64,000 nt of DNA from Tistrella mobilis KA081020-065 (GTDB lineage: Bacteria; Pseudomonadota; Alphaproteobacteria; Tistrellales; Tistrellaceae). This document shows, piece by piece, positions 13,892-32,803 of this stretch. The position numbers and the translations under genes were made by a program. The DNA lies in the NCBI RefSeq assembly GCF_000264455.2, contig NC_017956.1:2525501-2589500 (forward strand). The letters are read 5' to 3'. Positions within the stretch are counted from its first letter, which is position 1, and every line of letters starts with the position of its first letter. The notes under the pieces were generated by a model. That model was not told the origin of the DNA. It did not search any database and saw only the letters and a list, made by a program, of their open reading frames with translations.

Positions 13892-14506
13892 TCAGCGCGA
13901 GTAGTACTCGATGATCTGCTTCGGATCCATCTGGACCGGATAGGGAACTTCGGCCAGCTGCGGCATGCGATTATAGGTCGCGGTCAGCTTGTCGAAGTCG
14001 ACGTCGATGTACTCCGGCACTTCACGCTCGCGGCGCTGGGTAGCCTCGAGCACGAAGGTGAGCTGACGCGACTTCTCGCGCACGCTCACGACGTCACCCG
14101 GCTTCAGGCGGTAGGAGGGGATGGTCACGCGGCGGCCGTTGACCGCGACATGGCCATGATTGATGAACTGACGCGCGGCGAAGACCGTCGCGACGAAGTT
14201 CGCACGATAGACGACGGCGTCGAGACGGCTTTCGAGCAGACCGATCAGGTTCTCGGTCGACTCACCCTTGCGACGGGTGGCCTCGTCGACGACGCGACGG
14301 AACTGCTTCTCGGTCAGGTTGCCGTAGTAACCCTTCAGCTGCTGCTTGGCAGCGAGCTGCAGACCGTAGTCGGAAGGCTTGCGGCGACGCTGACCGTGCT
14401 GGCCGGGGCCATACGAACGTGCATTCACCGGGCTCTTGGCCGTGCCCCAGAGATTCACGCCGAGCCGCCGGCTGATCTTGTGCTTGGCCTGGATACGCTT
14501 GGTCAT
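13892..14506 (-). CDS. rpsD: 30S ribosomal protein S4
   Basis: 204 aa from the ATG at 14506. N-terminus [39 protein letters not shown], and the S4 RNA-binding domain [22 protein letters not shown] with [22 protein letters not shown]. It binds 16S rRNA early in small-subunit assembly. Monocistronic here: its promoter overlaps the end of the upstream ABC ATPase gene and it ends at a strong hairpin. Confidence 0.97.
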
Positions 14507-14557
14507 TTGAGAGCGAACCGTTCGGTAACGGGGTAGACCGCAGTAGAGGATCGGCAC

Positions 14558-14586
14558 TGAATACAGGCGCTCCCCCCGGATGTCAA
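14558..14586 (-). promoter_or_regulatory. Predicted rpsD promoter
   Basis: On the minus strand TTGACA (14586-14581), a 17-bp spacer and TATTCA (14563-14558) form a near-consensus promoter about 50 bp before the rpsD ATG. The -35 box overlaps the last codons of the btuD-like gene. Confidence 0.7.
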
Positions 14587-15374
14587 AGAGAATCGCCCGG
14601 ATTTCCGCGGGTTTCGGGCCCGGCACGCACGGCCACCGGCCAGGCACCCGCAGCGACCGGCGCCGGGATCGGCCGGATGCCGAAAGCGGCCTCGATCGCC
14701 CCGTTCTGCAGCACCGCCTGGGACGTGTCCAGCGCCAGCAGCCGCCCCTTCGCCAGCACCGCCACCCGGTCGGCATGGGCCAGGGCCAGCCCCAGATCAT
14801 GCAGCACCACGACCACGGTCATGGCGCCGCGCAGCCCCTCGAACAGCTGCATCAATGACAGAGCGTGACCAATGTCGAGCGCCGCCGCCGGCTCGTCGGC
14901 AAGCAGGGCACCGGCCGGCGCGGCCAGTGCCCAGGCGACCGCCGCTCGCGCCCGCTCACCACCCGAGAGATCATCCAGCCGCCGGTCCAGCAGCTCCCCC
15001 AGATCGAGGGCGGGATCCGGCGCCGCCGGGCGCCCGGCCTGCCACCACCCTGCCCCGCGCGCAGCCCCCAGCCGGACCAGATCGCGCACCGTCAGGTTCC
15101 AGTGGCTGCGGAAGCCCTGGGGCAGATGGGCGATCCTGGCCGCCACGCCCCGCCGGCCGAGCCCGGCCACCGGCCGCCCGTCGATCAGCGCCCGGCCGGC
15201 ATCGGGTATGAGCGCGCCGGTGAGCGTGCGCAGCGCCGTGGTCTTGCCCGAGCCGTTCGGCCCGACCAGAGCCAGCAGTTCCCCCGGCCGGACATCGAAC
15301 GACAGATCATCCAGCACCACCCGCCCGCCCAGGCGGAGCGTCACATGGTCGAGGGCGAGGCCCGCCGCACTCAT
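14583..15374 (-). CDS. btuD: Vitamin B12 ABC transporter ATP-binding protein (BtuD-like)
   Basis: 263 aa ABC ATPase of the siderophore/haem/B12 class. Walker [19 protein letters not shown]-loop [14 protein letters not shown], signature [14 protein letters not shown], Walker [14 protein letters not shown], and switch histidine [18 protein letters not shown]. It overlaps the permease gene by four bases. Cobalamin as substrate is inferred from the riboswitch heading the operon. Last gene of the B12 operon. Confidence 0.88.
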
Positions 15375-16366
15375 CGCACACCTCCGCGTGCCCGGCCAAG
15401 CAGCAGCAGAAAGACCGGAGCCCCGGCCAGCGCCGTCAACAGACCGAGCGGCAGATCGGCCGGCGGCAGCAGGGATCGGGCGAGGCCGTCGAAGATCGCG
15501 ACCAGCGCCCCCCCGGCAAGGGCGGAGGCCGGCAGCAGCAGATGATGCGTGGGGCCGACCAGGCGGCGGGCCAGATGCGGCACCATCAGCCCCACGAACC
15601 CCACCAGCCCGCCCCAGCCCACCGCGATCGCGGTGATGGCGGCGCCGGCAAGCACGGCAAGCTCGGTGAAGCGGCGGACATTCAGGCCCATGGCACCGGC
15701 CGCCTCGTCACCCAGCCCCAGCCGGTCGAGGCCGGGGGCGAGCACGAGGGCGAGGATCAGGGCGCCGAGCGTCGCCAGCCAGAGCAGGCCGAGCCCTGCC
15801 ATGTCGGGCGTGTGGATGCCGCCCATGGTCCAGCTCATCACCACCTGCAGATTGACCGTGTCGTCGGAAAGCGCCAGCAGCATCAGCCCGCGCACCGCAC
15901 CGAGTGCGGCCGCAACCGCCACGCCGGCCAGCAGCACGCCGGTGACGTCGGCGATGCCGGCGGCGCGTGCGGCCGCGATCACCACCCAGGTGGCCCCCCA
16001 GGCGCCGGCGATGGCCAGCACCGGCAGCGCCAGACCGGGCGCCACCGGCAGCGGCACCAGGAGCGCGATCGCGGCACCGACGGCGGCACCGGGGGCCGTG
16101 CCCAGAAGCCAGGGCTCCGCCAGCGGGTTGCGGAACACGCCCTGAAAGATCGCCCCCGCCAGCCCCAGACAGGCCCCGACCGCCACTGCCGCCAGCACCC
16201 GCGGCAGCCGCCAGGCCAGCAGCAGCCGGGTGAAGGGGCTGTCCTCGCCACGCAGCAGCGCCGCCAGATCGGCGATCCGCGCCGGCTCGGTCCCCAGCCA
16301 GAGCCCCGCCAGGATCGCGACCAGCAGCAAGGCGATCAGGGCAGCGAAGGCCCTCTGCGTCGTCAT
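15371..16366 (-). CDS. btuC: Vitamin B12 ABC transporter permease (BtuC-like, FecCD family)
   Basis: 331 aa, about ten TM helices. FecCD family features: LAWRLPRVLAAVAVGACLGLAGAIFQGVFRNPLAEPWLLG near the N-terminus, LLAGVAVAAALGAVRGLML mid-protein, and WGGLVGFVGLMVPHLARRLVGPTHH toward the end. It forms the inner-membrane channel with BtuD. Starts in a four-base overlap with btuF. Confidence 0.9.
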   Translation of the reverse strand: MTTQRAFAALIALLLVAILAGLWLGTEPARIADLAALLRGEDSPFTRLLLAWRLPRVLAAVAVGACLGLAGAIFQGVFRNPLAEPWLLGTAPGAAVGAAIALLVPLPVAPGLALPVLAIAGAWGATWVVIAAARAAGIADVTGVLLAGVAVAAALGAVRGLMLLALSDDTVNLQVVMSWTMGGIHTPDMAGLGLLWLATLGALILALVLAPGLDRLGLGDEAAGAMGLNVRRFTELAVLAGAAITAIAVGWGGLVGFVGLMVPHLARRLVGPTHHLLLPASALAGGALVAIFDGLARSLLPPADLPLGLLTALAGAPVFLLLLGRARGGVR

Positions 16367-17304
16367 TTATCACCCTCCGCAGGCATGAGACAGGCGCCGC
16401 CTGCGGCAAAGGCATCGGGATGAAGCAGCCGGGCCAGCATCTCCGCCCCCTCCACCACCCGTGGCCCCGGGATCAGCAGCAGCGCGCGGGTGACCGCGTC
16501 GACCCGGCCGGCGCGCACCGCGCGGATTCCGTCCCAGCCCGGCCGCTGCATCAGGGCCGGCACCCGCTCGGGCGGGCCCGCGATCAGGATCCTGTCGGGG
16601 TCGGCCCGCCCGACCGCCTCTCCCGACACCCGCCCCAGCCGGTCGCGGCCTGCGAAGACGCTGACACCGCCCGCCGCGCGCAGGATGTCGCCGGTATAGG
16701 TGGCGTCGCGGATGGTGAAGGCGGCGCCACGCTCGTCACTGCCGGTCTCCATATAGACCGGCACGGGTGGCCGCCCCTTCAGGCATGCGCCGAGATGCGC
16801 GATCCGGGCGCCCATGGCGTCGGCGACCGCGGCCGCGGCCGCCTCACGCCCGGTGGCGTGTCCCAGCAGCCGGATATTGGCCAGGATGTCGTCCAGCCGG
16901 TCATGGGTCAGCACCAGCGCCGGAATGCCGATCCGGCCCAACGGATCGACCAGCCCTGCCGCGGCCTGGCGCGCCGGGGTCATCACCACCAGATCGGCAT
17001 CGAGCCGCGCGATCGCCTCCACCGAAAATCCCAGCCGGCCGCCGATGCGGGCGGTGCGGGCGACCAGATCCGGCGGCCAGCGCGTCCAGGCCTCGATCGC
17101 CACGATGTCGGGCCCGGCGCCGATCGCAGCCAGCATTTCGACATTGCTGGAGAAGATCGCGACGATCCGGCGTGGCGGCGCCGGAATCGTCACGGCGCGG
17201 CCGAGCGCATCGGTCACCTGTCGCGGCCAGCCCTCTTCCGCCGCCGCAGGAAGCGCGGCGATGCAGGTGAACAGGATCAGCAGAAGACCGAATACCCGCG
17301 CCAT
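16363..17304 (-). CDS. btuF: Cobalamin periplasmic binding protein (BtuF-like)
   Basis: 313 aa with a signal peptide (MARVFGLLLILFTCIAALPAAA). Type III periplasmic-binding-protein pattern: VTDALGRAVTIPAPPRRIVAIF at the start of the mature protein, EAIARLDADLVVMTPA, and a C-terminal VRAGRVDAVTRALLLIPGPRVVEG. It hands substrate to BtuCD. The start overlaps the btuB stop (TGATG). Iron-chelate binding proteins look similar, but the B12 riboswitch favours cobalamin. Confidence 0.87.
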   Translation of the reverse strand: MARVFGLLLILFTCIAALPAAAEEGWPRQVTDALGRAVTIPAPPRRIVAIFSSNVEMLAAIGAGPDIVAIEAWTRWPPDLVARTARIGGRLGFSVEAIARLDADLVVMTPARQAAAGLVDPLGRIGIPALVLTHDRLDDILANIRLLGHATGREAAAAAVADAMGARIAHLGACLKGRPPVPVYMETGSDERGAAFTIRDATYTGDILRAAGGVSVFAGRDRLGRVSGEAVGRADPDRILIAGPPERVPALMQRPGWDGIRAVRAGRVDAVTRALLLIPGPRVVEGAEMLARLLHPDAFAAGGACLMPAEGDK

Positions 17305-19463
17305 CAGAAGCGATAGGTCAGGCCGACATAGGCCGCCCGCCCCGCCTGGCTGTTGCCGGTGCCGCCGCCATTCGACGACACCGGATCGCCCAGCGAGGGC
17401 ACGGTGTCGGTGGCGATGAACAGCGGATGATCATTGACGTCGAACAGGTTGTCGACGCCGGCGAACAGCGTCAGTTTCTCGGTCACGAACCAGTCGCCGC
17501 GCAGGTTCATCAGCCAGCTCGATCCCTTGCGATGGACATAGCGGCTGTCGGGCTCCGCCCCTGCCACCAGACTTTCTTCGGTATCGTAATAGAGCGGGCC
17601 GCGGAACACAGCCGTGGTGGTCAGGCTCCACACCCCGGGCTGGCCGGTGGTGATGCCGAGCGCCGCCTGGGTTTCGTGCATGCGCTGCAGCTTGTCGGTA
17701 TAGGGGCCGGAGAGGGCCGCATCGGCCCCCTTGTCGCGCATCTCGAAATTCCACACGCCCGAACCGCGCGCGATCAGCGTCCAGCCGTCCCAGCCCAGGC
17801 GGCGGGCGATGTCATAGGCCGCCTGCAGCTCCAGCCCGCGGATCACCGCATCGCCCACGGAATTGGCATAGGTCCGCTCATCCGGCCCGGTGGTGACGGT
17901 GGTGATCCGGTCGGTGATGGTGTTCTGGAACAGCGCCAGATCCAGGAACAGCGGCCCATCGGCATGGGCGGCGCCGATTTCGTATTGCAGGCTGCGTTCG
18001 GGATCGAGGTTCGGGTTGCCGAAGGTGCGGCCGCCGCCGACGGCGGTGAAGTCTGCCGCAAGCTCGGTGCCGGTCGGCGCGCGGAAGCCGGTGGCGACGC
18101 CGGCCCTGAGGGTCACCGTCGGCCAGGCCGCCCAGGCGGCGCCGACACTCCAGGTGACATCGTCCCAGCTTTCAGTGCGTTCCACCAGCAGCGGCTGGTT
18201 GGGGGTGGCCCTGGTCGAAACCCGGCCATAGGTCCAGCGGGCGCCGGCGCGCAGGGTCAGCGCGTCGTCGAAGGCCCGGTGCACGCCCTCGCCATAGACG
18301 CCGAAATCCTCGGTATCCTGGTTGATGTCATAGGGTGGCACCTGAGAGGTGGCCCCGCCCGAGACCGACTGGCGGAAGCGGTCGCTGCGCAGTTTCGCGG
18401 TCTCGGCATCGATCCCAAACAACAGGTCGGTATCGTCCCCCACCGCCAGCCGCGGCGCCAGCTTCAGACCCAGAACGTCGAGCTGGCGGCGGTTGTCATC
18501 AACCGAAAAACCGGCCGTCCCGTTCCGCTGCCGCTCCGATCCCCAATGAAAGCTGTCGACGTCACGCACGGCATAGGCCTGGGCCGAAAGCCCGAGCCCG
18601 CCACCGAATGTCGTGTCCCAGGCAAGATCGAGCGAGGCGTTGCGCCGGTCGTCAACATTGTCCACATCCCACTGCGAGCCGCGGAAGCCGGCGTCGTAGA
18701 CACCGTCGGTGCGGAGCGTCAGGTCGATGCGCCCGACCGTCTCGTTCTCGAAGCCAAGCGCCGCAAGCCCGCCGCCGCGTTTCCAGGCCGTGTTGACGAG
18801 TTGCCCCTCGGGGGTGTGGTAATCATCGGAAACGCCGCCGCCGATGCCGACGTAGTGGTCGAAACCGGCCGTGCTGCCCGCATTGGCGGCATGGCCGCGG
18901 GCAAGGCCGAAGGATCCGGCACGGGCGGTGATTTCGCTGCCCGGATCCTCGGTGGCACCGCTGCGGGTGACCAGATTGACCACGCCGCCGATCGCCTGGG
19001 CGCCATAGATCACCGAGGCCGGGCCCCGGATGATCTCGATCCGGTCCAGATCGTCGGGTGAGAGCTTGGAGAGATTGGCGGTGCCGGCGCGGCGGCCGTT
19101 CATCAGCACCGTCACCTGGCTGCGCCAGTCGCGGCCCTGGCCGTCGGTCGCGCCGCCGCGGATGTTGAACGAGGTCTGGCCCGGGCTCCAGTCGCTGAAG
19201 AAGCCGACCGCGTTTTCGGCCAGCAGATCGGTCACCGACCGGGCGGACGACCGGCGGATGGTGGCGGTGTCGATCACCTGCACGGTGCCGGCGGCACGGG
19301 CGCGGGGCTCGTCGCGCCCCTGGGCGGTGATCAGCATCCGGTCGAGTTCGGTGGCATCCTCGGCCCGGGCCGCCTTGGGGTCGGCGATATCGGGAAGAAG
19401 GGCAACGGAGCACGAGAGGGCCAGCACGCCGAAGGCGGGCCGGCGCAGAAGGGAGAAGCGCAT
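17304..19463 (-). CDS. btuB: TonB-dependent outer-membrane receptor, probably for cobalamin (BtuB-like)
   Basis: 719 aa. Signal peptide, TonB-box-like ELDRMLITAQ, plug domain with SVTDLLAENAVGFFSDW, RGGATDGQGRDWRSQVTVLMNG and DRIEIIRGPASVIYGAQAIGGVVN, then a 22-strand barrel ending in aromatic YVGLTYRF. Imports substrate across the outer membrane using TonB energy. Second gene after the riboswitch, so B12 is the likely ligand. Confidence 0.9.
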   Translation of the reverse strand: MRFSLLRRPAFGVLALSCSVALLPDIADPKAARAEDATELDRMLITAQGRDEPRARAAGTVQVIDTATIRRSSARSVTDLLAENAVGFFSDWSPGQTSFNIRGGATDGQGRDWRSQVTVLMNGRRAGTANLSKLSPDDLDRIEIIRGPASVIYGAQAIGGVVNLVTRSGATEDPGSEITARAGSFGLARGHAANAGSTAGFDHYVGIGGGVSDDYHTPEGQLVNTAWKRGGGLAALGFENETVGRIDLTLRTDGVYDAGFRGSQWDVDNVDDRRNASLDLAWDTTFGGGLGLSAQAYAVRDVDSFHWGSERQRNGTAGFSVDDNRRQLDVLGLKLAPRLAVGDDTDLLFGIDAETAKLRSDRFRQSVSGGATSQVPPYDINQDTEDFGVYGEGVHRAFDDALTLRAGARWTYGRVSTRATPNQPLLVERTESWDDVTWSVGAAWAAWPTVTLRAGVATGFRAPTGTELAADFTAVGGGRTFGNPNLDPERSLQYEIGAAHADGPLFLDLALFQNTITDRITTVTTGPDERTYANSVGDAVIRGLELQAAYDIARRLGWDGWTLIARGSGVWNFEMRDKGADAALSGPYTDKLQRMHETQAALGITTGQPGVWSLTTTAVFRGPLYYDTEESLVAGAEPDSRYVHRKGSSWLMNLRGDWFVTEKLTLFAGVDNLFDVNDHPLFIATDTVPSLGDPVSSNGGGTGNSQAGRAAYVGLTYRF

Positions 19464-19510
19464 GGGCTGATGATCCGGATTGGAGGTCTTGTGATTGGCC
19501 GCGTCGTCGG

Positions 19511-20317
19511 TCAGTCGTGCCAGACGAAAACGGCGGAGAGTTTGGGCGCGCGGGCGATGACGCCTTCCTCTGCCGGCATGAGGGCGAGATCGAGATGGCG
19601 GTCCAGCCGCCGTTCCAGGTCGTCGACCACATGACCGCGGCGGTGGAGATGATCGAGCATATGGGCGCGGGCCGCGGCGCGATCGGGAAAGAGGGCCTGG
19701 AACGTCCAGGGCACCAGATGCACCATGTCGGGTGCCAGATCGCTTCCAAGTTCATCGAGCGCCAGCCGGTCGCCCGGGGTGATGTCCTCACCATGAAGAT
19801 GGGTCGGTAGGAAACCCGCCAGACACCAGCTCCGCGGCCCCGCCTGGGCCGGCACGATCCAGGCGAGCCTGCGGCCGAGCGGCCGGGTCCGGGCATGCAG
19901 GGCGCGAGCCGCACCGATCGGCCCCGGAATATTGGCGCAGAGCACCAGATCGGCAGGGGCTGCCGGATCGAAGGGGGTGAGATCCTGCCAGACGCCGTCG
20001 CGGATATCGATCGAGAGGTCGGGGCGCGCCTCTGCGACCCCGGCGAGCCGGCCGCGCATATGGGCATTGGGCTCGATCGCACACCATCGCCCGCCGCGGG
20101 CGATGACCGCCTGGCCGAGCAGACCGGAGCCGGCACCGATATCGATCAGGCTGCGCGGGCGCCCGCCATAAAGGCCGCGCAGCGCATCACCCAGATTGCG
20201 GGCATAGTCCGATCGGGCAAGCTGATCGGCGAAGAAGGCGGCATCGGCATCGGCCCACGGGGCCGGTGACGGGAGCGGGGGCGGACCGGCGGCAGCAGCT
20301 CCGGGCGTGGCGGACAT
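19511..20317 (-). CDS. Class I SAM-dependent methyltransferase, first gene of the B12 operon
   Basis: 268 aa from the ATG at 20317, after AGGTGAGG. SAM-binding motif I is SLIDIGAGSGLLGQAVIARGG with a following acidic CAIEPN; a later DLVLCANIPGPIG fits motif IV. The C-terminal half (LDELGSDLAPDMVHLVPWTFQALFP) is not a family I can name. It lies directly under the cobalamin riboswitch and 47 bp ahead of btuB. It may act on a corrinoid, on B12 uptake, or be a methionine/SAM-linked enzyme; the substrate is unknown. Confidence 0.8.
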   Translation of the reverse strand: MSATPGAAAAGPPPLPSPAPWADADAAFFADQLARSDYARNLGDALRGLYGGRPRSLIDIGAGSGLLGQAVIARGGRWCAIEPNAHMRGRLAGVAEARPDLSIDIRDGVWQDLTPFDPAAPADLVLCANIPGPIGAARALHARTRPLGRRLAWIVPAQAGPRSWCLAGFLPTHLHGEDITPGDRLALDELGSDLAPDMVHLVPWTFQALFPDRAAARAHMLDHLHRRGHVVDDLERRLDRHLDLALMPAEEGVIARAPKLSAVFVWHD

Positions 20318-20430
20318 CTTGGGCCTCACCTGCGTGGCACGTCACCGCAGGCCGGACCCGAAGCGGCTGGACGCCGTTCCGGATCGCCATCGATACACCC
20401 CGACCGATGGGCACGCGCGTGACCACGAAT

Positions 20431-20739: not shown

Positions 20740-22311
20740 TCAGATGAAGAGATCGTCGGCCCCCGCAAAGCGTACGCCCGCCGCCGTCATCTCGGCGCGT
20801 GCGCGGCCAAGCGAACCGCCGGTGTCGATGGCGCGGCAGGCATCTTCCACCAGCACCACCTCGAAACCGGCGGCGCGGGCGTCGAGCGCCGTCCAGGCCA
20901 CGCAGAAATCGGTGGCGAGGCCGCAGACGAAGACGCGTTTGACGCTGCGCGACCGCAGATAGCCGTCAAGCCCGGTGGCGCTGCGCCGGTCGGCAGCGAG
21001 GAAGGCCGAATAGCTGTCGACCGCGGCATCGTCGCCCTTGCGGACGATCAGCCGGGCATGGGGCAGATCCAGATCGTCATGGAGTGCCGCGCCCCGGGTG
21101 CCCTGCACGCAATGGTCGGGCCAGAGCACCTGGCTGCCATAGGCGAGCTCCGTGGTCTCGAACGGCGCCTTGCCGGCATGGCTGGAGGCGAAGGAGGCAT
21201 GGCCGGCCGGGTGCCAGTCCTGGGTCAGCACCACCTCGGTGAACAGCCGTCCGATCCGGTTGACCACCGGCACGATCTCGTCACCGCCGGCGACCGCCAG
21301 CGCGCCGCCGGGCATGAAATCATACTGTGGATCAACCACGATCAGTGCATCACCGGCGCCGGGGCGCAGGCGCAGGGCCTCGGCGCGCGCCTCGGCTTCG
21401 GCATGACGACGGCGTGAGCGCCGGGGTCTTGCTGCCTCTGCGGGAGACGCCGCAGAATCGGTCTCGTCCAGCGCCTCGCGGCGGCGGCGATAGGACGGGA
21501 AGGCGGCAAGTTCCTCGTCGCGTGCGCCACGGATCATCAGCCCGTGCAGGAAGCCGCGCAGCGAGCGGACCTCCTGCCCGGTCAGATCCGCGCGCAGGAA
21601 CATGGCCTGCAGATTGCGCAGCATGGTCGGCCGCATCTGCCGGTTGCGCACCACCCCCGACCAGTCGAGTGCCTGGCCCAGATGCTCCAGGAAGGCATCG
21701 ATCTCCTGCTTGCTCGCCCGGCCATAGCGGCCGAGATCGAGTTGCACCGGCACGGTCTCGTCGCGCGCGGTGAACCATTCATAGGAGACCAGCGCCACCG
21801 CCTGGGCAAGATTGAGCGAGGCGAAGGCAGGGTTGAGCGGCACGGTCAGAATCAGATCGGCGAGCGCCACATCGTCATTCTCAAGCCCCGTCCGCTCGGG
21901 CCCGAACAGGATTCCGACCCGGCCGCCGGCCTCGACATGACCGCGCATGCGCGCCGCAGCCGCGCCGGGCGTCGCCACCGGCTTCACCATGTCACGCGGC
22001 CGCGCGGTGGAGGCCACCACGAAATCCAGATCGGCGACCGCATCCGCCACCGTCGCATAGACCCGGGCAGTGTCGAGCACCGCATCGGCACCCGAGGCCA
22101 GCACCCGCGCGCGTTCGCTCGGCCACTCGCAGCGCGGTGCCACCAGACGCATGTCGGTCAGGCCGAAATTCAGCATCGACCGTGCGGCCGAGCCGATATT
22201 GTCGGCAATCTGGGTGTTCACCAGGATGATGGCGGCCTGGTTGCCGACGGCACCTTCAATGCCACGGGTGGCGGCCGCTTTGGGCGGCCGCTGCTCGGAC
22301 TGATCGGTCAT
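20740..22311 (-). CDS. Fusion of TrmJ-type tRNA 2'-O-methyltransferase and nicotinamidase PncA
   Basis: One uninterrupted 523-aa ORF with two complete, unrelated domains. Residues ~24-275 are a SPOUT methyltransferase of the TrmJ class (tRNA Cm32/Um32): ILVNTQIADNIGSAARSMLN, ILFGPERTGLENDDVALAD, PAFASLNLAQAVALVSYEW, plus the C-terminal helical domain. Residues 276-317 are an Arg/Ala/Glu-rich linker. Residues ~318-523 are a nicotinamidase with catalytic Asp327, Lys425 and Cys470 and metal ligands Asp365, His367, His371. The pncA part has no start codon at its natural N-terminus, so it cannot simply be an adjacent gene. Product would link tRNA modification and NAD salvage in one polypeptide. 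Confidence 0.88.
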   Translation of the reverse strand: MTDQSEQRPPKAAATRGIEGAVGNQAAIILVNTQIADNIGSAARSMLNFGLTDMRLVAPRCEWPSERARVLASGADAVLDTARVYATVADAVADLDFVVASTARPRDMVKPVATPGAAAARMRGHVEAGGRVGILFGPERTGLENDDVALADLILTVPLNPAFASLNLAQAVALVSYEWFTARDETVPVQLDLGRYGRASKQEIDAFLEHLGQALDWSGVVRNRQMRPTMLRNLQAMFLRADLTGQEVRSLRGFLHGLMIRGARDEELAAFPSYRRRREALDETDSAASPAEAARPRRSRRRHAEAEARAEALRLRPGAGDALIVVDPQYDFMPGGALAVAGGDEIVPVVNRIGRLFTEVVLTQDWHPAGHASFASSHAGKAPFETTELAYGSQVLWPDHCVQGTRGAALHDDLDLPHARLIVRKGDDAAVDSYSAFLAADRRSATGLDGYLRSRSVKRVFVCGLATDFCVAWTALDARAAGFEVVLVEDACRAIDTGGSLGRARAEMTAAGVRFAGADDLFI

Positions 22312-22364: not shown

Positions 22365-24002
22365 TCAGGCGACACTGTTGGCCGCCGCGACCTCTGCCGC
22401 CGCCTGCACCGACACGCCGGCACGGTACAGCCGCCAGGTGATGCCGTCGGCCAGCGCCTCGTAAGAGGCATTGACGACGTTAGCCGAGACGCCAACCGTC
22501 GACCAGTGGTCGCCGGCGGTATCGGCGCTTTCGATCACCACCCGGGTCACCGCATCGGTGCCGGTGCCATCCGGGGCCGACATGATGCGGACCTTATAAT
22601 CGACCAGCCGCATGTCGCGCACCGGCTGATAGGTCTGGGCGATCGCCCGGCGGAGCGCGGTGTCGAGCGCGTTGACCGGGCCGTTGCCCTCTGCCACCGC
22701 CATCACCGGCACCCCGCCCACCGAGATCTTGATCGTCGCTTCCGACAGGGTCACCAACTCGCCACGGGCATTGTAGCGACGCTCGTCGATCACCCGGAAG
22801 GACAGCAGGCGGAAATATTCCGGCACCTCGCCCAGGGCGCGACGCGCGAGCAGTTCCAGGCTGGCCTCGGCGCCGTCATAGGCATAGCCCATATGCTCGT
22901 TGGCCTTCACCTGCTCCAGCAGGGTGGGCAGGCGCGGATCCGACGGGTCGACCTCGATACCGATCTCGGCGAGCCGCGCCAGCAGATTGGCCCGGCCGGC
23001 CTGGTCCGAGACCAGGACATGGCGCTGATTGCCGACCTGTTCCGGGCGGATATGCTCATAGGCGCGCGGATCCTTGAGCACCGCGCTCGCATGCAGCCCG
23101 CCCTTATGGGCAAAGGCGGCGGCACCGACATAGGGCGCATGGATGTTCGGCGCGCGGTTCATCCGCTCGTCGAAGGCGCGGCTGACGCTGGTCAGATGGG
23201 CGAGCCCGGCCTCGTCGACACCGGTCGTGTAGCCCATCTTCAGCATCAGGGTCGGCAGCAGGGTCACCAGATTGGCATTGCCGCAGCGCTCCCCCAGACC
23301 GTTCAGCGTGCCCTGGATCTGGCGCACCCCGGCACGGACCGCCGCCAGGCTGTTGGCGACCGCATTGCCGGTATCGTCATGGCAATGGATGCCCAGCCGG
23401 TCGCCGGGCACGATCGTCGCCACATGGGAGACGATTTCCTCGATCTCATGCGGCAGCGTACCACCATTGGTGTCGCAGAGCACCACCCAGCGGGCACCGG
23501 CCTGATACGCCGCCTTGACGCAGGCCAGCGCATAATCGGGATTGGCCTTGTAGCCGTCGAAGAAATGCTCGGCATCGAACATCGCCTCGGCCTTGACCCG
23601 TGCGGCATGGCCGATGCTGTCGGACACCATGCGCAGGTTTTCGTCGAGATCGACGCCCAGCGCTACGGTCGCCTGGAAATCCCAGCTCTTGCCCACCAGA
23701 CACACCGCCTGGACCGGCGCGTTCAGCACCGCAGACAATCCGGGATCGTTCTCGGCCGAACGCCCCGACCGCCGGGTCATGCCGAAGGCCGAGATCCGCG
23801 CCCGCTGCATCCGCGGCAGATCGCCGAAGAAGGCGTCGTCGGTCTGGTTGGCCCCGGGCCAGCCGCCTTCAATATAGTCGATGCCCAGCCGGTCCAGTTC
23901 ACGCGCAATCGCGGCCTTGTCGGCCGCCGTGAAATCAACGCCACGGGTCTGCGCGCCATCGCGCAGCGTGCTGTCGTAGAGATAGATGCGCTCACCGGAC
24001 AT
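22365..24002 (-). CDS. cimA: (R)-citramalate synthase
   Basis: 545 aa from the ATG at 24002 (MSGERIYLYDSTLRDGAQTR) after a GGAGAA site; an in-frame upstream start exists but is less likely. HMGL-type catalytic barrel with STLRDGAQTRGVDF, EGGWPGANQ, LCDTNGGTLPHEI and GIHCHDDTGNAVANSLAA, then LNGLGERCGNANL and a C-terminal LeuA-type regulatory dimer domain. It condenses pyruvate with acetyl-CoA to citramalate for isoleucine synthesis; the long form with the leading SGERIYLYDST motif is the CimA rather than LeuA type. Confidence 0.9.
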   Translation of the reverse strand: MSGERIYLYDSTLRDGAQTRGVDFTAADKAAIARELDRLGIDYIEGGWPGANQTDDAFFGDLPRMQRARISAFGMTRRSGRSAENDPGLSAVLNAPVQAVCLVGKSWDFQATVALGVDLDENLRMVSDSIGHAARVKAEAMFDAEHFFDGYKANPDYALACVKAAYQAGARWVVLCDTNGGTLPHEIEEIVSHVATIVPGDRLGIHCHDDTGNAVANSLAAVRAGVRQIQGTLNGLGERCGNANLVTLLPTLMLKMGYTTGVDEAGLAHLTSVSRAFDERMNRAPNIHAPYVGAAAFAHKGGLHASAVLKDPRAYEHIRPEQVGNQRHVLVSDQAGRANLLARLAEIGIEVDPSDPRLPTLLEQVKANEHMGYAYDGAEASLELLARRALGEVPEYFRLLSFRVIDERRYNARGELVTLSEATIKISVGGVPVMAVAEGNGPVNALDTALRRAIAQTYQPVRDMRLVDYKVRIMSAPDGTGTDAVTRVVIESADTAGDHWSTVGVSANVVNASYEALADGITWRLYRAGVSVQAAAEVAAANSVA

Positions 24003-24022
24003 GGGGATCGTATTCTCCGTCG

Positions 24023-24065
24023 ATCGGCTGTTCCGGGACATGTTTAGCACCCGGAACCGGCCGAT
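24023..24065 (-). promoter_or_regulatory. Leader hairpin upstream of cimA
   Basis: ATCGGCTGTTCCGGG (24023-24037) can pair with CCCGGAACCGGCCGAT (24050-24065), with one mismatch/bulge and a 12-base loop, in the 5' leader just before the cimA ribosome-binding site. There is no T-tract, so it is not an obvious terminator. It could affect translation or RNA stability. Confidence 0.45.
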
Positions 24066-25301: not shown

Positions 25302-26634
25302 TCAGCGCAGACAGAAATGTGGTGACGCAGCGATCAGGCCATACGCATCCTTCAGTGTGGGCGCTCCTCGGATGGTTGCAAGGACGTCAATCGAAGCGTT
25401 GCGGAAGTATATGCTGAGTGCGGTATCAAGATCATCACGACAGTTCAAGGCTTCATACATGCGTGCGGCCAGTCCCGCGCGTAGCACCATATTGCCCGGC
25501 GAAAACCAGACATCACGATCGTCGGGCCAGCCTTTCGGTGACCTCGCTGCATGAACGCCGTGCCCGAGTGCCTGAGATGCGGACCGGACTTCCACAGCCG
25601 CTTCGCGTGTCGACAATCCGAACAGATTCAAGAATGCGATGCCCCAGTCTTCCGGCAGCAGAACCTTCTGCCCCTGGGGCTGCCAACTTGATGGATGATC
25701 AAGTAGAACATCCATCATCGCATCGATGCGCCCATCCCTGGCGAGATAGACCGCCGTCATCTCCTGCACAACATCGTCCGGCGGCTGATCAGAAATAAAA
25801 TATTTCGCCAGCTTTCGCGAAATAAATCGAGCGGTAGAAGGATGCCCCGCGAGAAAATCGAGAAGATCATCCATCTCCTTCTGCCCATTTTCTTGAAATT
25901 CCCGCGCCAATATGATCTTGGTTCCCGGCTCATGGCGACTGTCCAAGAACATCATGTCCAGAGGGCGATTCCGATCATAGTATTTTATGTACCATCCGGT
26001 CAGCATCTGAGCTGCGGCAGCAACGTCTGACTGCTTATATCCGCCAGACACGCCCAGTGTATGCAGCTCCAGGAGTTCTCGCCCCAAGTTTTCGTTGATT
26101 CCCAGCCCATTTTTCTGCCCCATTTGAGAATTCGGACCTATGGAGCTGTTATTATTCAAATAGATATGCATCAAGGGGTGGTGCATGACTGCACCCAAGA
26201 GGGTCCGGAAGGGCCCGGTCACATGTGGGCGTATGGCCTCGTTCTCGTATAGATCGGTCAGACCGAGGAGAGATGGCTGCGTTTGAGAAACTGTAAAATG
26301 CTCAAAAAAAGAAATGGACAAGCCGCTCTCTCAGTGGCGTCTCAGTCTGGAGAGCGGTCATAATGCGGGCATCCCGTATCCTGTCGGAATACTGGACAAA
26401 TGTCTGGTATGAGTCTCTCTCTGGGGCCATACGTTTTTCTTCCGGGGTCGGAAAGCGTATGGCCCAGCGTGCCTTAAGATCAGGTATGAGTGTAACCGGA
26501 GGACGTGGCTGCATATCCGACGACAATTGCCTGCGAAGCCACGCCCTGGGCGCTTCCCCGACCTGCTCTGGCAGATCAGGACGGTATCCCATCCCGAAAC
26601 GGGTCATGGCAAGATATGCATCATCTGAGATCAT
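25302..26634 (-). pseudogene. DUF1800-family protein split by a frameshift at a T7 run
   Basis: Two overlapping frames together make one DUF1800 protein. The first (start ATG 26634, FGMGYRPDLPEQ... RIMTALQTETPLRERLVHFFF) hits a TGA after TTT TTT. The second continues FEHFTVSQTQPSLLGLTD... with ENLGRELLELHTLGVSGGYKQ and ARFISRKLAKYF. Family proteins read LV-F--NHFTVS without a break, so skipping one T of the seven (about 26305-26311) restores the protein. It may be a mutation, a sequencing error, or a +1 recoding/slippage site (UUU UGA). Same AT-rich composition as DUF1501, which it precedes in one operon. Confidence 0.8.
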
Positions 26635-26870: not shown

Positions 26871-28262
26871 TCAACCGCGCTTCCAGCGCGTGCCGTCCGG
26901 CCCGTCCTCCAGCACCACCCCGCGTGCCTTCAGATCGTCGCGGATCCGGTCGGCGGTGGCGAAGTCGCGGTTGCGGCGCGCGGCCAGGCGTTCGTTGATC
27001 AGATGCTCGATCTCGGCCTCGTCGGGGCCGGTCTCGCCGCCCGAGGCGGGGCCGCCGCGGAACCAGGCTTCGGGGTCGAGCCGCAGCAGGCCAAGGGCAT
27101 GCCCCGCTCCCAGGATCTGCGCCTTCAGCCGGGCCCGTTCGGCCCGATCGGTGGTGCGGTTCGCCTCCCCCACCAGCTCGTGCAGATGCATCAGCGCAAG
27201 CGGGGTGTTGAGGTCGTCTTCAAGCGCCGCACGCACCGCGTCGGGATAGACGCGGCAATCGCCGTCAGGCTCGATCTCGTCCATCAGCCGCAGGGTGTTG
27301 TAGAAGCGGTCGAGCGTCTGCTTCGCCCGCTCCATGCCCTCCTGCGTCCAGTCCAGCGGCCGGCGGTAATGGGTCTGGAGCATCAGCAGGCGCACCGCCT
27401 CGCCCGGCACATGGCCCAGCAGATCGCGGACGGTGAAGAAGTTGCCGAGCGATTTCGACATCTTCTCGCCGTCGACATTGATGAAGCCGTTATGCATCCA
27501 GTAGCGCACGAACAGCGCGCCGTCATGGGCGCACTGGCTCTGGGCGATCTCGTTCTCGTGATGCGGGAAGATCAGGTCCTGGCCGCCGCCATGGATGTCG
27601 AAGGTCTCACCCAGATGGGCCTCGGCCATGGCCGAGCATTCGATATGCCAGCCCGGACGGCCGCGACCCCAGGGGCTGGACCAGCCGGGCTGATCATCGG
27701 CGCTGGGCTTCCAGAGCACGAAGTCGGCCGCATCGCGCTTGTAGGGCGCAACCTCCACCCGGGCCCCCGCCACCATCTCTTCCCGGTCGCGGCGCGACAG
27801 CCCGCCGTAATCGGGCATCGACGGCACGCTGAACAGCACATGGCCCTCGGCCTCGTAGGCATGATCCTTGGCCATCAGCCGGCGGATCATGTCGATCATC
27901 TGCGGGATGTGCTCGGTCGCGCGCGGCTCGATCGACGGCGGCAGCGCGTTCAGCTCGCCCATGTCCTCGTGGAACATCAGCGCAGTGCGGGCGGTCAGGG
28001 TCTCGATCGCCTCGCCGCTTTCCTTCGCCCGCACGATGATCTTGTCGTCGACATCGGTGATGTTGCGGACATAGGTGACACGCGGATAGCTCGCCTTCAG
28101 CAGGCGGTAGAGGGTATCGAACACCACCACCGGCCGGGCATTGCCGATATGGGCGCGGTCATAGACCGTGGGGCCGCAGACATACATCCGGATATGGTCC
28201 GGATCGATCGGCTCGAAAGCTTCCTTGGCACGGGTACGGGTGTTGTAGACGGAAAGCGCCAT
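26871..28262 (-). CDS. cysS: Cysteinyl-tRNA synthetase
   Basis: 463 aa from the ATG at 28262 ([20 protein letters not shown]). HIGH-type motif [19 protein letters not shown] with the zinc cysteine [16 protein letters not shown], second zinc/recognition block [13 protein letters not shown]... [23 protein letters not shown], and [13 protein letters not shown]. Class I synthetase that charges tRNA-Cys. Normal length. Adjacent to gltX in the same orientation. Confidence 0.97.
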
Positions 28263-28356
28263 GATGGCTCGTCCTCGGGCAGGCAATCAAAGACGGGCGA
28301 ACGGCGGAGGCGCCGGCCGGTTGAATGGGGTGGCCTCGGGCATCAGGCACCAGGCA

Positions 28357-29792: not shown

Positions 29793-31457
29793 TCAGGCCC
29801 GGTCGCGGAAGCGGTTGGTGATCGGATAGCGCCGGTCGCGCCCGAAGGCACGGCCGGTGATCTTCACACCCGGGGGCGATTGGCGACGCTTGTATTCAGC
29901 CACGTAGAGCAGGCGGGCGATGCGGTCGACCTCGTCGCGATCCTGGCCCTGCTCCACCAGCACCCGGTGCGGCAGCTCCTTCTCGACCAGGCCTTCCAGA
30001 ATGGCGTCCAGCCGTTCATAGGGCGGCAGGCTGTCCTCGTCCTTCTGGTCCTCGCGCAGCTCGGCCGATGGCGGCTTGGCGATCACCCGCTCGGGCATCA
30101 CCGGCCCGTCGGGGCCAAGCGCGCCTTCCGGCTTCTGGGCATTGCGCCAGCGCGACAGCTCGAAGACCGTCATCTTGTAGACGTCCTTCAGCACCGAATA
30201 GCCGCCGCACATGTCGCCATAAAGCGTGGCATAGCCGACCGACATCTCGGACTTGTTGCCGGTGGTCAGCACCATGTCGCCGAACTTGTTGCTCATCGCC
30301 ATCAGGATGACGCCACGGATGCGCGACTGGATGTTCTCTTCCGTCACATCCGGGCCGCGATTGCCGAAGACCGGCGCCAGCATGGTCGAGAAGGCCTGCA
30401 CGGCCGGCTCGATCGGGATCTCGTCCAGCCGCACGCCGCAAAGTTCGGCACAAAGCGCCGCATCGTCCAGGCTGTCGCGGCTGGTATAGCGGGACGGCAT
30501 CATCACCGCGCGGACCCGATCCGCCCCCAGCGCGTCCACCGCCACCGCCAGCGACAGGGCACTGTCGATGCCGCCCGACAGGCCCAGCACCACGCCCGGG
30601 AAGCCGTTCTTGTTCACGTAATCGGCCAGGCCCAGCATCATCGCCGAGTAGACCGCCTCCAGCACCTCGGGCTCGGGCGACAGCGGGCCAGCCTCGGCCA
30701 CCACCTCGCCCGCCTCGGTCCGGCGGATATGGGCAGGCGTGGTACCGCTGATCCAGGCCGGCGCCTGAACCTTCAGCGCGCCGTCGCGGTCGAGCACGAA
30801 AGAGGCACCGTCGAAGACCAGCTCGTCCTGGCCGCCGACCAGATTGACATAGGCGAGCGGCAGGCCGGTTTCGTGCACCCGCGCCACCGCATGGGCCAGA
30901 CGCTGGTCGCGCTTGTCGACCTCATAGGGGCTGCCGTTGATCACCAGCAGGAATTCGGCCCCGCTTTCGGCCAGGCATTCGGCCGAATCCGGCCGCCACA
31001 TATCCTCGCAGACCATCAGCCCGACCCGCCAGCCGCGGATCACCACCGGCCCGGCCGGCGGCGCCAGATCGAAGACCCTGAGTTCGTCGAACACGCCGTA
31101 ATTGGGCAGCGCATGCTTGCGCACCACGCCGGTGACGTGGCCGCCATCCAGAACATAGGCAGCATTGTAGAGCTTGCCGCCCTCGGCATGGGGGGCGCCC
31201 ACGATCAGCGCCGGCCCGCCGTCGGCGGTCGCGGCCGCCAGCATGTCGAGCGCGGATGCCACCGCGCGCATCAGCGCCGGCTTGCGCACCAGATCCTCGG
31301 GCGGATAGCCGATCAGCGACAGCTCGCCGGTGACGCAGAGATCGGCGCCCTGCTCCGCCGCCTGTTGCCGTGCCTCCAGCAGCTGCCGGGCATTGCCCTC
31401 GACATCGCCGACGACGGGGTTGATCTGGGCCAGGGCCAGGGTCAGAAGCTGGGTCAT
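29793..31457 (-). CDS. nadE: Glutamine-dependent NAD+ synthetase
   Basis: 554 aa from MTQLLTLALAQINPVVGD at 31457. The N-terminal nitrilase-fold glutaminase domain shows VTGELSLIGYPPEDL (catalytic Glu), RKHALPNYGVFDE (Lys) and GLMVCEDMWRPD (Cys). The C-terminal synthetase has the ATP-pyrophosphatase P-loop GLSGGIDSALSLAVA and TTGNKSEMSVGYATLYGDMCGGY. It converts NaAD to NAD+ using glutamine. Adjacent to pncB in the same direction, making an NAD(P) salvage pair. Confidence 0.96.
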   Translation of the reverse strand: MTQLLTLALAQINPVVGDVEGNARQLLEARQQAAEQGADLCVTGELSLIGYPPEDLVRKPALMRAVASALDMLAAATADGGPALIVGAPHAEGGKLYNAAYVLDGGHVTGVVRKHALPNYGVFDELRVFDLAPPAGPVVIRGWRVGLMVCEDMWRPDSAECLAESGAEFLLVINGSPYEVDKRDQRLAHAVARVHETGLPLAYVNLVGGQDELVFDGASFVLDRDGALKVQAPAWISGTTPAHIRRTEAGEVVAEAGPLSPEPEVLEAVYSAMMLGLADYVNKNGFPGVVLGLSGGIDSALSLAVAVDALGADRVRAVMMPSRYTSRDSLDDAALCAELCGVRLDEIPIEPAVQAFSTMLAPVFGNRGPDVTEENIQSRIRGVILMAMSNKFGDMVLTTGNKSEMSVGYATLYGDMCGGYSVLKDVYKMTVFELSRWRNAQKPEGALGPDGPVMPERVIAKPPSAELREDQKDEDSLPPYERLDAILEGLVEKELPHRVLVEQGQDRDEVDRIARLLYVAEYKRRQSPPGVKITGRAFGRDRRYPITNRFRDRA

Positions 31458-31498
31458 GTCGGTCCGGATCCTGTCGGAAAGCACGGCACGGAGGGCCG

Positions 31499-32803
31499 TC
31501 AGCGGCGGGGCCGCCGCGACGGCAGCAGGAATTCGCGCCCGACCTTCACGCTCTCGCGCCCGTCATACGAGACGATGTCCGCGGTCGCGTAGGTCTCGCT
31601 CCACTTCTCGGGCAGGAAAGAGCCGGTGCCGACCACGTCGATCGGGGCTTCGACGCTGCCCATCACCCGGCACTTCTCGGGCCCGAAGCCGCTGGAAGCG
31701 ACGATGCGCACCTTGTCGAACCCGGCATCGTCCAGGGCGTTCCGCATCTGGAAGATCGCCGCCGCCGAAACGCCGGGGCCGAGCAGCCATTTCAGCTCGG
31801 TCTCGCTGCGATAGCGACGGATCGCGTCGGGGCGGTTGCGCTCCAGCGCCGCATAAGACAGCGCCGGATCCAGCCCTTCCAGGAAGCGGCCACCATGGGT
31901 GTCGAGCCGCACCGACAGCTTGCCGGCCGCCGCCATCTCGGGGAAGCGGCGGCAGACGGCCAGCGCATCGGTGATCTCGGCGCCGTAATAGTCGACCAGC
32001 ACGGTCAGCGCATCGCCCGGGAAGGTGTCGACGAACATCTCCGCGGCCCGAAGCGTGGAGCCGGCATAGCCGATCAGCGCATGGGGCATGGTGCCGAAGC
32101 CATGGGCATTGCCGAAATGCACCGCGGTCGCATCGGTCGCATTGCCGATGAAGCCCACCGCCCCTTCCGCCTGGGCCGCAGCCGAGCCGACGCTCGCCGC
32201 ATAGGCCATCATCTCGGCCATTTCGGCACCGGCGCAATGGCGGGCATCCATGGCGAGGAAGGCCGCGCGCGGCAGGGCGACCGCCATGCTCCAGGCGTTA
32301 TAGGCGGCGACACAGGGGGCGCCCAAACGCTGGAGATACACCGTCTCCAGCTCCACCAGCGCCGACATCGGGCCGGTGATGTACATCAGCGGCTCGCCCG
32401 CCCCCACCCACGAGCCTTCCTCGTGGCAGGGTTCGATCACGATCTCCACCCCGCGCAGCCGGGCCATCGCCTCGATCCAGTCGATGGCGAGTTTCAGCGT
32501 CGCCAGCACCGGGCGGCGCATGAACACGGCATAGGTCACGCTGCGATCGCCGAAACGCTCGACGATGCGCCGCGTGCGCTTGAAGTAGACATCGGTATAG
32601 GCGGCGACGAAGTCGTTGGTGGCAGACATGCGCAGCCTCGGCAGTTCCGTGGTGCCGGCGGACGGGGCGTCCGCGGATGAGCTGTCGGCAGAAGAGCTGT
32701 CGGCAGAGGATGTTCGGGGGCCAGCGGAAGGAATGACGGCGGCCCCGGTCTCCGGGGCCGCCGCATCGGTCCGACCCTTGGGGGTCGCGGATACGGATGT
32801 CAC
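31499..32803 (-). CDS. pncB: Nicotinate phosphoribosyltransferase
   Basis: 434 aa from a GTG that overlaps the aroG stop. Core motifs: [88 protein letters not shown] and [10 protein letters not shown]. It makes nicotinate mononucleotide from nicotinate and PRPP. The first ~50 residues are low-complexity, with a repeated SSAD unit (15-bp DNA repeats around 32679-32708), so translation may start later, e.g. at MSATNDF. Confidence 0.92.
32679..32708 (-). repeat. 15-bp tandem repeat within the pncB 5' end
   Basis: Two adjacent copies of GAGCTGTCGGCAGA plus one variable base encode the repeated Ser-Ser-Ala-Asp segment in the low-complexity N-terminus of pncB; a third, degenerate copy flanks them. 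Likely prone to copy-number change. Confidence 0.7.

Follow-up and report, generated by a model that had tools for sequence, protein, structure and literature searches.

A single gene in the window (the whole 64,000-nucleotide stretch of Tistrella mobilis DNA that was analysed) joins a tRNA methyltransferase of the TrmJ type to a nicotinamidase of the PncA type, and this fusion is a real, lineage-specific joining of two known enzyme families. Very probably it encodes one bifunctional protein, most likely with two activities that are independent of each other, and it probably arose when DNA carrying pncA was inserted between trmJ and rpsD. An earlier note on this DNA had read the two enzymes as a single open reading frame, and this reading held: in the ORF list of the window, positions 20740-22311 of the minus strand form one stop-free, ATG-initiated frame of 523 residues, both halves score above curated cut-offs and the gene is of full length in three out of three genomes. 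The gene and its parts are as follows.

20740..22311, minus strand: fused trmJ-pncA gene, ATG start, 523 aa (open frame, family matches and full-length relatives of 94% identity in the genomes G001 and G058)
21535..22239, minus strand: TrmJ half, residues 25-259, SPOUT domain and C-terminal domain (TIGR00050 match over 27-256, above cut-off)
21355..21534, minus strand: linker, residues 260-319 (three-genome codon alignment and protein alignment)
20767..21354, minus strand: nicotinamidase half, residues 320-515 (PRK11609 match over 321-515, above cut-off; PDB 2wt9, E 3e-73)

TrmJ (YfhQ in E. coli) is the 2'-O-methyltransferase that forms Cm32/Um32 in tRNA. Pfam assigned residues 27-177 of the fusion to SpoU_methylase (81.5 bits, cut-off 29.7) and residues 322-497 to Isochorismatase (86.1 bits, cut-off 27). 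Among the NCBIfam models, TIGR00050 (TrmJ/YjtD) was matched with 173.8 bits against a curated cut-off of 167.15, i.e. the fusion passes at the level of the subfamily, and remains below the cut-off of PRK15114, the equivalog of the E. coli-type TrmJ (118.6 vs 280); the nicotinamidase/pyrazinamidase model PRK11609 was passed with 192.4 bits (cut-off 174). The solved structures nearest to the two halves are the SpoU/TrmJ proteins 3onp and 5gra and, with an E-value of 3e-73, the nicotinamidase 2wt9. Sequence matches to chains 3onp and 5gra extend to residue 257-258 and thereby include the C-terminal domain of the TrmJ half (about 70 residues). An AlphaFold model computed with a 21-row alignment (mean pLDDT 56.3) was largely confident for the PncA half and suggests a helix at residues 295-314; the TrmJ half, for which this alignment contained no relatives, gave block pLDDT values mostly between 27 and 50, and the model was not counted in favour of a TrmJ fold.

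N38, R44, R104, R106, E139 and N167 are invariant across 9 TrmJ rows, and we take N38, R44, E139 and N167 to be residues of the SPOUT motifs. At the motif TXARXR, described as specific for TrmJ in the section consulted of PMC5372735, the fusion reads STARPR, so that R104 and R106 fit the motif arginines and Ser replaces Thr at position 1. In the nicotinamidase half, D327, K425 and C470 align with D10, K94 and C133 of P. horikoshii PncA, and D365, H367 and H400 align with its metal ligands D52, H54 and H71 (one alignment, residues counted by hand; catalytic and metal-ligand roles of the P. horikoshii residues according to the section consulted of PMC3025910). The triad as well as D365 and H367 had been named correctly beforehand, while H400 had been overlooked; H371, also named, is probably the counterpart of the M. 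tuberculosis metal ligand H57, an assignment made without alignment. D327, K425, C470, D365, H367, H371 and H400 are invariant across 21 PncA rows, i.e. the Asp/Lys/Cys triad and the metal site of nicotinamidases are present in the fusion, with H371 included by inference. With curated cut-offs passed and the mapped active-site residues invariant, both domains are complete and keep their catalytic residues, as the earlier note had maintained.

The linker had been put at about 40 residues, but measured between the family boundaries it comprises about 60 (260-319); it is basic. Across the three genomes, residues 260-282 and 303-319 are unchanged and residues 283-302 vary with indels of whole codons, which by themselves are weak evidence as they can arise by chance; with three closely related genomes, constraint on the variable linker is weakly tested. 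Pairwise comparison of the three genomes over residues 307-319 gave 4, 2 and 2 synonymous codons and not one amino-acid change. The GC content at codon position 3 of the variable linker falls to 0.50 in the window, a low value that counts against the reading as one bifunctional protein, and is 0.68 and 0.90 in the other two genomes.

The nicotinamidase had been described as lacking a start of its own, which is right for conserved starts: the three-genome codon alignment contains no conserved canonical start between residues 260 and 324, and the nearest conserved ones in frame are ATG259, where the TrmJ domain ends, and GTG325, which precedes the catalytic D327 by two residues (G001 alone has a further two GTG codons within the variable part of the linker). 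No strong Shine-Dalgarno match precedes the ATG of the fusion itself. Two products would nevertheless result if the nicotinamidase were made also, or only, from an internal start, or if the basic linker were cleaved. All three genomes keep ATG259 and an AGGAGGT that ends 7 nt before CTG251; this sequence, however, ends 31 nt upstream of ATG259, too far for usual use, and it codes for QEV of a conserved TrmJ motif. Of 11 stand-alone trmJ genes examined, 10 have this motif, and 6 of these 10 likewise carry AGGAGG at it. An internal start served by AGGAGGT as a Shine-Dalgarno-like element was rejected, since the QEV codons account for it and these six stand-alone genes have AGGAGG there too. The CTG codons 313 and 315 are conserved too, and the portion consulted of PMC13398362 states that Borrelia PncA was shown in earlier work to use a rare non-canonical start, and its title speaks of a resolved annotation error. 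Against two products stands the stretch from residue 260 to 324 without a conserved canonical start. We regard two products as unlikely and read the gene as one that is probably translated as a single chain.

The full-length fusion was found in all three genomes of the order, the window's included, and the proteins of G001 and G058 are 94% identical to that of the window. Their lengths in the three assemblies are 522, 523 and 524 aa. A frameshift or stop in the linker of other assemblies, named beforehand as evidence that would speak against the fusion, is absent from the two relatives. An assembly or sequencing error that deleted a stop between two adjacent genes is extremely improbable, as nothing was found in its favour, and was rejected on the three concordant assemblies: they share the open frame at this level of divergence despite linkers that differ by whole codons. 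None of the three genomes contains a second TrmJ or a second PncA above the family cut-off.

A search of 385 genomes of the class gave matches at E<=1e-40 in 302, and among the matches listed, the best by E-value, three genomes, those with the fusion, matched both halves in one stretch; in the same listing, inspection by eye revealed no neighbouring separate matches to both halves, the closest separate pair (G379) being on opposite strands with about 10 kb in between. Only the window's own genome was matched among 398 genomes of the phylum at E<=1e-95, a threshold at which a fusion with its halves swapped, or one whose linker differs strongly, could be missed. The statement that no standard family has this architecture agrees with these searches, which gave no further example in the class or, at that threshold, in the phylum. 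The best 80 of 594 matches in a scan of genome_contigs all hit the PncA half only, and two scans of viral contigs returned no relative of the fusion. In a search of 58 genomes, which included two of the fusion genomes, nine others strongly matched both halves, on different contigs in seven cases and more than 1 Mb apart in two. Relatives with separate genes had been named as a refutation; separate genes are indeed the state in all nine, but as trmJ and pncA are separate in other families, the fusion is derived, not false. A TrmJ or nadE match near pncA was seen at none of the 80 genome_contigs loci (flanks up to 10 kb, many contigs being shorter); the pncB query in this flank search was the divergent gene of the window, with which an ordinary pncB could be missed. 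In the literature searched we found no paper that joins TrmJ with nicotinamidase or describes such a fusion, broader matches being judged on title and start of the abstract.

Stand-alone nicotinamidases usually have their own start: 79 of 87 other PncA rows have one in frame at or before the match, and in 7 of the remaining 8 a Met lies just inside it. Nine pncA rows with open upstream sequence were considered as other pncA fusions and rejected, as the upstream parts looked by eye like chance frames or signal sequences. Two further observations concern this family. One alphaproteobacterial genome has two adjacent nicotinamidase matches on the same strand (G369:C114:5619-6907), and several nicotinamidases of Bradyrhizobium and Burkholderiales (L035, L045, L089, L091 and others) have N-termini that by eye resemble signal peptides, which suggests an exported form.

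The minus strand of the window reads aroG-type DAHP synthase, pncB-like gene, nadE, gltX, cysS, DUF1800, DUF1501, cimA and trmJ-pncA, followed by an unassigned ORF, a TonB receptor, three importer genes and rpsD. The neighbours relevant to the origin and context of the fusion are the following.

31499..32803, minus strand: divergent pncB-like gene, nicotinate phosphoribosyltransferase-like (PRK07188, 125.5 bits, below the cut-off of 378)
29793..31484, minus strand: nadE, NAD+ synthase (PRK13981, 777 bits)
26871..28286, minus strand: cysS, cysteine--tRNA ligase (TIGR00435, 523.7 bits)
22365..24050, minus strand: cimA, citramalate synthase, 53 nt upstream of the fusion (TIGR00977, 642 bits)
14583..20329, minus strand: block between the fusion and rpsD, comprising an unassigned ORF, a TonB-dependent receptor, a substrate-binding protein, a permease and an ATPase (NCBIfam, below cut-offs)
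13892..14800, minus strand: frame containing rpsD, ribosomal protein S4 (TIGR01017 over residues 103-302)

Eleven stand-alone alphaproteobacterial trmJ loci were compared with flanks of up to about 1.5 kb. In seven, rpsD directly follows trmJ within about 300 nt, and no rpsD match lies within the flank in the other four; cimA was found directly upstream of trmJ at three loci, and cysS upstream at one (L022). Around the fusion, in the window as in the two relatives, rpsD is instead some 6 kb distant, beyond the same block of genes, which has the same order in L107 and L108. The trmJ-rpsD order elsewhere suggests an insertion at the end of trmJ as a simpler cause of the fusion than a functional tie. 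The fusion thus probably goes back to an insertion between these two genes, with the first inserted gene fused to trmJ.

Several features of this region deserve mention in their own right. The ABC importer of the block appears to be of the heme/siderophore/B12 type, and we left its substrate unassigned because the NCBIfam matches are all below curated cut-offs. The ORF downstream of the fusion (19511-20329, minus strand, 272 aa) is 85% identical in L107 and L108 and had no match at E<=0.001 in Pfam or NCBIfam; by motif it presumably resembles a SAM-dependent methyltransferase. About 98 codons 5' of the S4 homology are open in the rpsD frame, which also overlaps the gene of the ABC ATPase, and the true start of rpsD is probably internal to 13892-14800. 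The DUF1800 gene (25302-26634, minus strand) consists of two overlapping frames, the break between them lying near a run of seven T, and a relative in L107 (42% identical) is one frame at the same place; the split may reflect a disrupted gene, a sequencing slip or a programmed frameshift.

In a tree of 90 PncA domains, from which none was dropped, the three fused domains form a clade with that of the betaproteobacterium Derxia gummosa (support 98/91), apart from seven alphaproteobacterial rows (L009-L020) and from Devosia, Bradyrhizobium and other alphaproteobacterial rows. The 80 genome_contigs rows in this tree were picked by similarity, several of its forks are weak and the Derxia row was flagged as long and unsure in place; the grouping suggests that the donor of pncA was possibly from outside the Alphaproteobacteria.

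The earlier note had also pointed to pncB and nadE within 12 kb of the fusion, and their positions agree: the pncB-like gene lies 9.2 kb and nadE 7.5 kb upstream on the same strand of the window. The same arrangement of nadE was found in all three genomes, at 7.5 kb in the window's own genome (G000), 4.7 kb in G058 and 11.3 kb in G001, and pncB adjoins nadE in the window and in L108. With this recurrent proximity, the fusion and nadE may form a functional cluster. The intervening DNA holds gltX, cysS, cimA and variable genes: DUF1800 and DUF1501 lie between cysS and cimA in the window, are absent in L108 and have relatives of 42-43% identity in other orientation in L107. The NAD salvage genes and the fusion are therefore not contiguous, and the proposed tie of tRNA position-32 methylation to NAD salvage finds no support beyond proximity. 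Such a coupling could consist in a nicotinamidase placed at tRNA, or in a nicotinamide or NAD state that tunes TrmJ. The recurrent nadE on the same strand, its pncB neighbour in the window and in L108, and the fact that each activity has only its fusion copy above cut-off in the genome would fit it. Against it, the fusion is confined to one genus among the genomes searched, trmJ and pncA are neighbours in none of the nine other genomes that have both, no TrmJ match lies beside pncA at the 80 loci (flanks up to 10 kb), and no paper was found that joins the two topics. We therefore consider coupling improbable. Its most specific form is more doubtful still, namely that, by way of the attached nicotinamidase, the TrmJ half would sense the turnover of nicotinamide or NAD or respond to it, or that tRNA binding would set the nicotinamidase activity; if true, tRNA modification and NAD salvage would be linked physically and directly.

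The fusion resembles well-known proteins in each of its halves. With TrmJ (PDB 4cnd, 4xbo, 5gmc and 5gra, by the depositors' names) it shares the SPOUT motifs, the TrmJ arginines, the C-terminal domain and, as at three of the eleven stand-alone loci, cimA upstream; it differs in the second enzyme at the C-terminus and in the displaced rpsD. With PncA (PRK11609; PDB 2wt9) it shares the catalytic triad, the metal ligands and the full domain, whereas this half has no conserved start of its own in the fusion and a basic linker ties it to a tRNA methylase. Additional parts at the end of a SPOUT fold have precedents: according to the sections consulted, the engineered SPOUT proteins TrmL and RlmH tolerate a C-terminal fusion to the protein ThiS (PMC5372735), and the TrmD-Tm1570 double knots are a natural case (PMC11187310). 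In contrast to both, the partner in the fusion described here is a metabolic amidohydrolase.

Returning to the preferred reading of one bifunctional protein with independent activities, both of which are predicted from the sequence, the N-terminal TrmJ half would most likely dimerise via its SPOUT knot and 2'-O-methylate nucleotide 32 of tRNA, and the C-terminal half would convert nicotinamide by hydrolysis to nicotinate, from which the PncB-like enzyme and NadE encoded nearby could lead on to NAD+. DNA bearing pncA would have come between trmJ and rpsD, and trmJ would have lost its stop and pncA its start. Most likely both activities would remain independent, the fusion yielding equal amounts of both enzymes. 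This domain architecture was found in no other group searched, and its probable history is readable: a trmJ-rpsD neighbourhood would have been broken by a block of genes, the first member of which is now part of trmJ. Because each half is the sole copy of its family above cut-off in the genome, the fusion offers a clean test of whether accidental fusions are neutral or lead to coupling.
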